Below, piece by piece: positions 51,933 to 54,274 of a stretch of DNA of 64,000 bases; positions within the stretch are counted from its first letter, which is position 1, and each line of letters opens with the position of its first letter. The stretch is from positions 62,001 to 126,000 of the forward strand of contig QCLO01000001.1 of assembly GCA_003214465.1 (NCBI GenBank), written 5' to 3'. Below the pieces are notes generated by a model. It was not told where the DNA came from, ran no database searches, and was given only the letters and a program-made list of their open reading frames with translations. The position numbers and the translations under genes are program-made. Source of the stretch: Acidimicrobiales bacterium AG-414-N20. Lineage in GTDB: Bacteria > Actinomycetota > Acidimicrobiia > Acidimicrobiales > MedAcidi-G1.

Positions 51933-52574
51933 ATGGGGAGACCGAGAACACCTAAAGGTAGGGCGCAAGAAACCCACAAGAGATTGGGTTTTGAATATCC
52001 TGATGCTAAGTGTGAATTAGATCACAAAAATCCATTCGAACTACTTGCGGCGACAATCTTGTCTGCCCAATGCACAGATAAAAGGGTTAATACGGTTACC
52101 CCAAAACTTTTCCAAGAATATCCGGATGCATTTAGTTTGTCTGAAGCTAATGAAATCACTGTTCAAGAGATTGTTAGGTCAACTGGCTTCTATATCAATA
52201 AGACTAAAAGTCTTTTAGGAATGGCTCAAGCTTTGGTTGATGATCACGAAGGAGTAGTTCCCTCCTCAATGAAAGAACTAACCGCATTGCCAGGAGTAGG
52301 CAGAAAAACAGCAAATGTTGTTAGAAGTGTTGCATTGGATCTGCCAGGTTTGCCAGTAGATACACATGTTGGACGTTTATCGCGACGAATTGGAATCACA
52401 GAAGAAAAGGATCCCGTAAAAGTGGAAATGGAGCTAAACCCTATGGTCCCCGCAGCAGAAAGAGGGTTGTTTAGTTTGAGATTGATTTTACACGGAAGGC
52501 GAGTTTGCTCTAGTAGAAAACCTGTTTGTGAAGATTGTTCATTAAGTGATTTTTGTCCAAGTTCAGAAATTTGA
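51933..52574 (+). CDS. nth: Endonuclease III (DNA glycosylase/AP lyase)
   Basis: 213 residues from ATG 51933; the frame is open to 51768, but that part overlaps mshD on the other strand and lacks homology. Helix-hairpin-helix LPGVGRKTANVVRS with the catalytic Lys (AP lyase), Asp in VDTHVGRLSRRIG, and the C-terminal 4Fe-4S cluster Cys-x6-Cys-x2-Cys-x5-Cys (CSSRKPVCEDCSLSDFC). It removes oxidised pyrimidines. It is followed by the GC-rich candidate RNA and terminator. Confidence 0.94.
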   Translation: MGRPRTPKGRAQETHKRLGFEYPDAKCELDHKNPFELLAATILSAQCTDKRVNTVTPKLFQEYPDAFSLSEANEITVQEIVRSTGFYINKTKSLLGMAQALVDDHEGVVPSSMKELTALPGVGRKTANVVRSVALDLPGLPVDTHVGRLSRRIGITEEKDPVKVEMELNPMVPAAERGLFSLRLILHGRRVCSSRKPVCEDCSLSDFCPSSEI

Positions 52575-52620
52575 AAAGTTCAATTTGGTAAAAATTTTTA
52601 GATAAGTGTAATTTCTAATT

Positions 52621-52708
52621 ATCCGGGTACCGCAACCCGGTTTGGCGAGAATCGGGTTCCCGCCACCCGCCTCGCTTGCTCAGCGCCCTTAGGGGCGCTG
52701 AGCTTTTT
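52621..52708 (+). ncRNA. Candidate structured small RNA or 3' element after nth
   Basis: An 88-base GC-rich block in an AT-rich setting. P1: CCGGGT (52623-28) with ACCCGG (52635-40). P2: GCGAG (52645-49) with CTCGC (52671-75), enclosing CGGGT (52653-57) with ACCCG (52665-69). P3 is the terminator stem. A possible promoter lies just upstream: TTGGTA (52585-90), 18-base spacer, TAATTT (52609-14), which would start transcription near 52621. No known RNA family was recognised. It could also be just the nth mRNA 3' end. Confidence 0.4.
52678..52708 (+). terminator. Strong rho-independent terminator
   Basis: GCTCAGCGCCC (52678-52688) and GGGCGCTGAGC (52693-52703) form a perfect 11-base-pair stem with a TTAG loop, followed by TTTTTAT. 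It ends plus-strand transcription from nth or from the candidate RNA. On the minus strand no T-run follows the stem, so it is not a clear terminator for the gene at 52707-52922. Confidence 0.9.
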
Positions 52709-52922
52709 ATAGGGTTTTGGAAAGATGTTCTAATTCTCTCAGAGCGCCGCGAAGATGACGTTCAGTCTCCAGTAGATTTCTATTGCTTGCATCTATTTCA
52801 TCTTCATTAGAAGATTTATCGTTTATTTCTATTAATGCGTTGACTAAAGACTCAAGTTGAGTTTTTAACGAAGAGAGCTCTGCTTTTGAAATGATTTGCA
52901 TATATAAGTTTGGATTGATCAA
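52707..52922 (-). CDS. Small coiled-coil protein, unknown function
   Basis: 71 residues (or 64 from a second Met), mostly charged and helical with heptad-like leucines: ISKAELSSLKTQLESLVNALIEIN, then NRNLLETERHLRGALRELEHLSK. No family recognised. It is divergent from hisD, and its stop overlaps the last base of the terminator on the other strand. The frame is the only open one in this stretch. Confidence 0.5.
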   Translation of the reverse strand: MINPNLYMQIISKAELSSLKTQLESLVNALIEINDKSSNEDEIDASNRNLLETERHLRGALRELEHLSKTL

Positions 52923-52966: not shown

Positions 52967-52987
52967 AGGAGGTAGCGTTATGTAATG
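52967..52987 (+). promoter_or_regulatory. Start-stop codon pair in front of hisD
   Basis: AGGAGGT at 52967-52973 is followed after 6 bases by ATGTAATG: an ATG (52980) directly followed by TAA, whose last A starts the hisD ATG (52985). The spacing is ideal for the first ATG and long (11 bases) for hisD. Ribosomes could start and stop at once, then restart on hisD. Confidence 0.55.
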
Positions 52988-54274
52988 CTTAAGCAAATTG
53001 ATTTAAGAGGAAAAGGTCCAAACTGGAGGGATTTGTTACCTGTTTCAAGTGAGATTGATGAACTTCCGATTGATTCGGTACGGGAGATAATAAGTCAAGT
53101 GCGAGATTCAGGTGACACGGCATTGCGTGATCTCACTCAAAAATTTGATGGGGTAACTCTTGATGAATTGACAGTCAATGAAAAAGACCTAGAAGACGCA
53201 TACAATTCGATTTCTAAAGAATTCAAGAAGGCGCTTAATGCCTCTGCAGATGCCATTGTTAGCTACCAGAAGACTCAATTACCTGAACACACAGTGTTGG
53301 AAGATAACGGCTTATGTATTGAAACCTTTCAAAAGCCAGTTGCCAGTGCTGGGTGTTATGTGCCGGGTGGGTTGGCGTCTTATCCGTCCACTGTGTTGAT
53401 GACAGCGTTAATCGCGAAAGTTGCGGGCGTCGAAAGGGTCGTCGTAACTGTTCCACCATTTAGCGAAGAAGGAATTTCAATTGAAACTTTATCTGCTGCT
53501 TTTGTGGCAAAAGTAGATGCTGTGCATCCAATAGGTGGAGCACAAGCGATTGCTGCACTTGCTTATGGAACGGAATCTGTGCGACCTGTTGATGTTATTG
53601 TCGGTCCAGGAAATGTTTATGTTTCTTTAGCTAAACAAGAGGTTGCTGGACAGGTTGGAGTCCCCGCGTCATTTGCTGGACCTTCAGAGATAATGGTGAT
53701 TGCTGATTCGAGTGCTCCTGCAAAATTTGTCGCCGTGGATCTTGCTGTTCAGGCAGAACATGGCCCTGGCGGTAAGTCTTGGTTGGTAACTACAGATGAA
53801 AATTTTGCTATTGAAGTTGTAAATGAATTGGAGAATTTAGTGGAGAACTCTTCGCGTGGGGAAAACATTAAGTCAACTTTCGAGACAGGGGGCTATTGCG
53901 CACTAGTGGATGACCTCGATTCTGCAGTTGCAGTAGTCGATGCAGTTGCTCCGGAACACTTACAAATCATGACAAATGACCCTGTAGAGGTGGCTAAGAA
54001 AGTTTCAAATGCTGGTGCAATTTTTTGTGGTAATTGGTCACCCGCTTCTCTTGGAGATTATTTAGCGGGTCCAAGTCACGTATTGCCGACTGCTGGAACT
54101 GCGAGATTTGCGGGTGCATTAACCGTGAATGATTTCATGCGAGATATCCACATCGTTACAAGTACTGAAAAAGCTTTGAATCGTCTTGGTCCGCACATAT
54201 TTAATTTTGCTAGATCTGAAGGACTTGAAAGTCATGCAGAGTCGATCCGTTTGAGAGGAGTTGAAATTGAATAA
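52985..54274 (+). CDS. hisD: Histidinol dehydrogenase
   Basis: 429 residues. Oxidises histidinol to histidine with NAD in two steps, zinc-dependent. Motifs: GCYVPGGLASYPSTVLM, HPIGGAQAIAALAYGT, VDVIVGPGNVYVSLAKQEV, FAGPSEIMVIAD and AEHGPGGKSWLVT (zinc ligands Gln/His region), and VAPEHLQIM. First gene of the his operon. Only an AT-rich 62-base gap separates it from the divergent small gene; a start-stop pair precedes it. It overlaps hisC by 14 bases. Confidence 0.95.
   Translation: MLKQIDLRGKGPNWRDLLPVSSEIDELPIDSVREIISQVRDSGDTALRDLTQKFDGVTLDELTVNEKDLEDAYNSISKEFKKALNASADAIVSYQKTQLPEHTVLEDNGLCIETFQKPVASAGCYVPGGLASYPSTVLMTALIAKVAGVERVVVTVPPFSEEGISIETLSAAFVAKVDAVHPIGGAQAIAALAYGTESVRPVDVIVGPGNVYVSLAKQEVAGQVGVPASFAGPSEIMVIADSSAPAKFVAVDLAVQAEHGPGGKSWLVTTDENFAIEVVNELENLVENSSRGENIKSTFETGGYCALVDDLDSAVAVVDAVAPEHLQIMTNDPVEVAKKVSNAGAIFCGNWSPASLGDYLAGPSHVLPTAGTARFAGALTVNDFMRDIHIVTSTEKALNRLGPHIFNFARSEGLESHAESIRLRGVEIE

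Follow-up and report, generated by a model that had tools for sequence, protein, structure and literature searches.

Positions 52621-52708 of the window (the whole 64,000-nucleotide stretch of DNA analysed here) most probably constitute an autonomous small RNA (sRNA) gene, a reading to which we assign a probability of about 0.93 from sequence comparison. As far as sequence evidence goes, this gene would be the founding example of a previously uncatalogued sRNA family spanning the Acidimicrobiia. The family is a new one within a known kind, the bacterial sRNAs with C-rich loops, and its hallmark is a pair of near-identical C-rich loops (UCCCGCC and U/CCCGCC) sharing the core CCGC(C). The features of the locus are as follows.

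51939..52574, plus strand: nth (endonuclease III), the upstream neighbour, outside the RNA; Pfam HhH-GPD, 4e-21
52585..52590, plus strand: -35-like hexamer TTGGTA, by direct reading
52609..52614, plus strand: -10-like hexamer TAATTT, 18-base spacer from the -35-like hexamer; predicted start at ~52621
52621..52708, plus strand: predicted sRNA gene, extending from a predicted 5' end at ~52621 through the U-run; based on fold, covariance models and an order-wide family
52623..52640, plus strand: P1 hairpin, 6 bp, with loop ACCGCA at 52629-52634 (UCCCGCC in most relatives)
52623-52628 and 52635-52640, plus strand: P1 strands CCGGGU and ACCCGG, by direct reading of the sequence
52645..52675, plus strand: P2 hairpin, with an outer helix of 5 bp, a 5' AAU bulge, an inner helix of 5 bp and loop UCCCGCC at 52658-52664
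52645-52649 and 52671-52675, plus strand: P2 outer helix, GCGAG and CUCGC
52653-52657 and 52665-52669, plus strand: P2 inner helix, CGGGU and ACCCG
52678..52708, plus strand: intrinsic terminator, with an 11-bp stem at 52678-52703, a UUAG loop and UUUUU at 52704-52708; picked up by a terminator scan
52707..52922, minus strand: orf71, a small convergent ORF of 71 aa, conserved at the locus and without a Pfam match
52985..54274, plus strand: hisD, the downstream neighbour; Pfam Histidinol_dh, 2e-142
L194:1419-1513 and L196:689-783: second RNA copies, away from the nth-hisD locus

The initial annotation had described an 88-base GC-rich block of three stems amid AT-rich DNA, and we confirmed both parts of that description. 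The three stems lie at the position proposed for them, and the same three hairpins form the minimum-energy fold of the block (-51.4 kcal/mol, z = -4.08), a stability that was reached by none of 200 shuffled sequences. The GC content of the block is 63%, compared to 23-42% in the flanking non-overlapping 90-base windows.

The RNA had been described as belonging to no recognised family, and this agrees with our finding that neither the window's element nor 14 distant members had a match in Rfam 15 at the gathering score; for the element, nothing credible appeared even at E <= 10, and no tRNA or tmRNA was detected. A limited search of the open-access literature found no paper on any Acidimicrobiia sRNA or on the present RNA family.

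The source genome is a small one from the marine Acidimicrobiales, and the nearest named records to it are MedAcidi-G1 and relatives. A DNA search recovered the element in all 8 same-genus genomes and in most genera of the same family, within which only the structured part is conserved. A covariance model built from 17 family members (R1) matched 62 of 298 Acidimicrobiales genomes, and a second model built from 47 members (R2) matched 189 of the 397 genomes that we sampled from the order, representing 117 of 204 genera; the window's own element scores 103.7 bits with R1 and 89.2 bits with R2. On inspection we judged three matches to be false and excluded them (L103 for R1; L151 and L150, which resembles a tRNA T-arm, for R2). 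Outside the order, a strong score was obtained for a single genome, which belongs to a different order of the class (G813, sequence L135), and a survey of 297 genomes from across the phylum gave no match at E <= 0.001 beyond the class. No sampled genome of genus g6 was matched. In addition, five sequences that retain nth (L049, L054, L055, L059 and L060) gave no credible match with filters off, the best hit having an E-value of 0.21 and lying off the nth locus. True absences of the RNA therefore exist, and the model is not merely detecting nth neighbourhoods.

The stems of this RNA are both conserved and covarying among relatives, the absence of which would have counted against the sRNA proposal. 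We aligned 47 distinct members by fitting them to the model; in this alignment, compensatory double changes occur at 23 of the 28 base pairs, and 97.6% of cells are paired. The covariation score of this alignment was 0.514, compared to 0.171 after shuffling, and none of 500 shuffles attained any of five covariation measures. When the partners were slid by 1-3 columns, pairing fell to only 34-49%. Double changes occur in 6 of 7 modelled pairs of P1 (99.1% of cells paired), in all six pairs of the P2 outer helix and two of the four of its inner helix, and in 9 of 11 pairs of the terminator stem. We also counted pairs in an alignment of 17 family members produced by MAFFT alone, without fitting to the model; it contained 5 pairs with double changes, a result matched by 0 of 500 shuffles. 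A loop-anchored, stem-by-stem parse agrees for P1; its register for the P2 outer helix was optimised and is thus biased toward pairing. Nearly all members also retain the asymmetric 5' bulge of P2.

The stems surrounding the CCCGCC loops vary while the loops themselves hardly change. Of 74 members, 62 carry CCCGCC in the first loop, 71 carry U/CCCGCC in the second and 59 have both; the window's own genus differs slightly in loop 1, which reads ACCGCA. Two sequences have lost the P1 loop (L148:1501-1596 and L149:1501-1598, the latter lacking most of the P1 stem as well) and keep P2 and its loop intact. Given this loss, sequence comparison suggests that P2 carries the essential function.

If the sRNA gene exists, its most likely mechanism is a trans-acting one, either antisense pairing through the C-rich loops or capture of an RNA-binding protein. 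From our analysis we give antisense action roughly even odds. It is the default reading because the C-rich loops of the actinobacterial sRNA B11 pair with G-tracts, an interaction demonstrated experimentally near ribosome-binding sites in M. marinum and M. abscessus (PMC12395582, PMC10470900). By antisense action, a transcript of ~88 nt would run from its own promoter to its own terminator, P1 and P2 would present two near-identical C-rich loops as exposed seeds, these loops would pair with G-rich (GGCGG-type) stretches in several target RNAs, and pairing would alter the translation or stability of those targets.

We analysed potential targets in 400 kb stretches of each of two genomes, the window's own and a GC-rich relative. 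The loop complement GGCGG was not enriched at predicted gene starts and stood below internal levels there (227 genes in the GC-rich relative, 356 in the own genome); GGAGG was enriched at the same starts, as expected. Exact TGGCGGGAA sites number 18 in the genome, compared to 2 for the reversed control, and nearly all of the 18 lie inside coding regions, with none at an evident gene start. The missing start-site enrichment is compatible with a handful of targets, and it keeps protein capture a serious rival to antisense pairing.

Protein capture holds that the two hairpins, by displaying the same loop, bind and titrate an RNA-binding protein, perhaps a dimer. There is precedent for such titration in the CsrA-sequestering RNAs and in the ANTAR-binding sRNAs EutX and Rli55. 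The use of one hairpin module twice, with a near-invariant loop core and closing pairs conserved across the order, suits recognition by a protein, as does the finding that loop complements are not enriched around gene starts in the two genome samples. No specific protein partner is indicated, however, and we hold this reading as a tentative one, with appreciably less than an even chance of being correct.

We tested an ANTAR-domain protein as the partner because the dual hairpins recall ANTAR targets and because 24 of the 25 genomes that we examined encode such a protein, usually a single one in the window's family. The hexaloops of ANTAR targets carry A1 and G4 (PMC8164766), and treating one base as bulged would give the present RNA hexaloops as well, of the form NCCGCN and with G in the fourth position. 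Only half of this rule applies to the present RNA: G4 fits, but A1 occurs in only ~6 of 74 first loops and in no second loop. Most loops are 7-8 nt long, with 6 obtained only when a base is bulged; in the window, the P1 loop has 6 nt and the P2 loop 7 nt. Moreover, ANTAR proteins are encoded by genomes without a detected RNA (G013, G050, G051 and G054). As the A1/G4 loop rule does not hold, we rejected classical ANTAR-target identity. That the RNA sequesters a dedicated RNA-binding protein, possibly a single ANTAR-type regulator that reads a C/U-CCGCC hexaloop instead of A1/G4, is in our estimation unlikely. If true, such sequestration would make the RNA a class-wide global regulatory switch in hard-to-grow bacteria. 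The source genome has a single ANTAR-domain match, in a 193-aa open frame (G000:C1:135917-136075), and the same holds for most sampled genomes of the family.

The reading of the block as an sRNA gene with its own promoter and terminator, as originally proposed, is supported by the covarying stems, the terminator detected by scanning and a conserved -10 element. By consensus the promoter TTGGTA-N18-TAATTT is weak, matching at 7 of 12 positions where our scan required 9 of 12. As the promoter at 52585-52614 is weak on its own, its support rests on conservation across the order. When the starts of TAnnnT motifs ahead of model position 1 were counted in six-position bins, 53 of 74 members fell in the -12 to -7 bin and 11 in the bin just upstream of it, compared to 0-3 in any other bin. 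The TTGGTA hexamer is identical in 7 of 8 other same-genus genomes (L016 has TTGGAA), and a minority of distant members carry an upstream T(T/C/G)GAC-like (TCGAC-like) element, mostly in the -36 to -31 bin.

Among 81 inspected members, 79 share one locus, in which the order is a GNAT gene (mshD-like, in the opposite direction), nth, the RNA, a small convergent gene, and hisD or hisC. The small convergent gene, orf71 in the window, lies between the RNA and hisD in its own family and in other families (for example in L099, L195 and L197), and it probably encodes a real, uncharacterised small protein.

The position of the RNA, ~50-210 bases past nth in most members, would fit a structure belonging to the nth 3' UTR or terminator, perhaps released by processing. 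We consider this improbable, as the RNA has its own conserved -10 element and is retained in members for which we detected no adjacent nth (L087, L089, L096, L097, L099 and L142-L145). In at least three genomes (L053, L130 and L137) the RNA is also turned around at its usual position, and in two of them, L053 and L137, its orientation relative to nth is reversed. Furthermore, P1 and P2 with their conserved loops are unnecessary for termination. The earlier view that the block is more than a plain terminator is upheld by this persistence without nth and in inverted orientation, and by the covariation of the stems.

The reading of the RNA as a his-operon leader or attenuator that acts in cis has a still smaller chance of being correct. 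Such a leader would account for the presence of hisD or hisC downstream in most members, with hisD on the same strand. However, the convergent orf71 separates the RNA from hisD, the orientation of the RNA with respect to hisD is reversed in L053, L130 and L137, and the second copies in G159 and G124, both of genus g34, are situated away from hisD. The centroid structure shows no competing antiterminator fold, and the 88 bases contain no His-rich leader peptide. Together, independence from nth, in-place inversion and the second copies exclude an nth 3' UTR or a his leader as a general explanation. The GC richness of the block is the sole point in favour of a functionless chance repeat or REP-like element, a reading of negligible probability that is contradicted by the single copy of the element in its own genome, its order-wide covariation and its fixed locus.

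Bacteria of the class Acidimicrobiia occur in large numbers in oceans, fresh water, soil and activated sludge. An RNA whose loops hardly vary over 117 sampled genera and that nearly always occupies one locus probably has a general role, as judged from its conservation. A covariance model and an Rfam entry could now be prepared for the family, which also supplies loop positions for mutation, and its twin C-rich loops allow the question of antisense pairing or protein capture to be asked.

The known system most readily compared with this RNA is the 6C RNA (RF01066; mycobacterial B11, or ncRv13660c), which is likewise an independent actinobacterial sRNA, ~90 nt long, that has C-rich loops and ends in a Rho-independent terminator. 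Both loops of 6C contain a run of about six C residues, whereas those of the window's RNA read ACCGCA and UCCCGCC. The element had no match to RF01066 even at E <= 10, its own genome and genus gave none at E <= 1, and nothing scored above the cut-off in 61 relatives. The bacterial family of the window does contain 6C-like RNAs, but these have stems of 10 or more bp and CCCCCC loops, unlike the short stems and CCGCC loops of the present RNA. Those of the sister genus (G009 and G014) lie elsewhere with other neighbours, in G014 ~55 kb away on the same contig; no 6C-like RNA was found in the window's own genus. Given the lack of an RF01066 match, the different loops and the coexistence of 6C-like RNAs at a separate locus, we rejected 6C homology. 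The sister-genus 6C-like RNAs (L062:1501-1586 and L063:1501-1585) score 46.2 and 39.8 bits, just below the Rfam gathering score of 47, and the Rfam threshold thus misses 6C RNAs of the Acidimicrobiales.

The ANTAR dual stem-loop RNAs, together with EutX and Rli55, resemble the present RNA in placing two tandem short hairpins before a terminator, and in G4 if a hexaloop is assumed. The present RNA departs from them in lacking a conserved A1, in the length of its loops (mostly 7-8 nt) and their CCGCC core, and in controlling no gene in cis. In the proteobacterial CcsR and alpha-r14/15 RNAs, paired stem-loops expose C-rich anti-G seeds (CCUCC); their sequence, hosts and loci are different, and the likeness to the present RNA is one of idea only.
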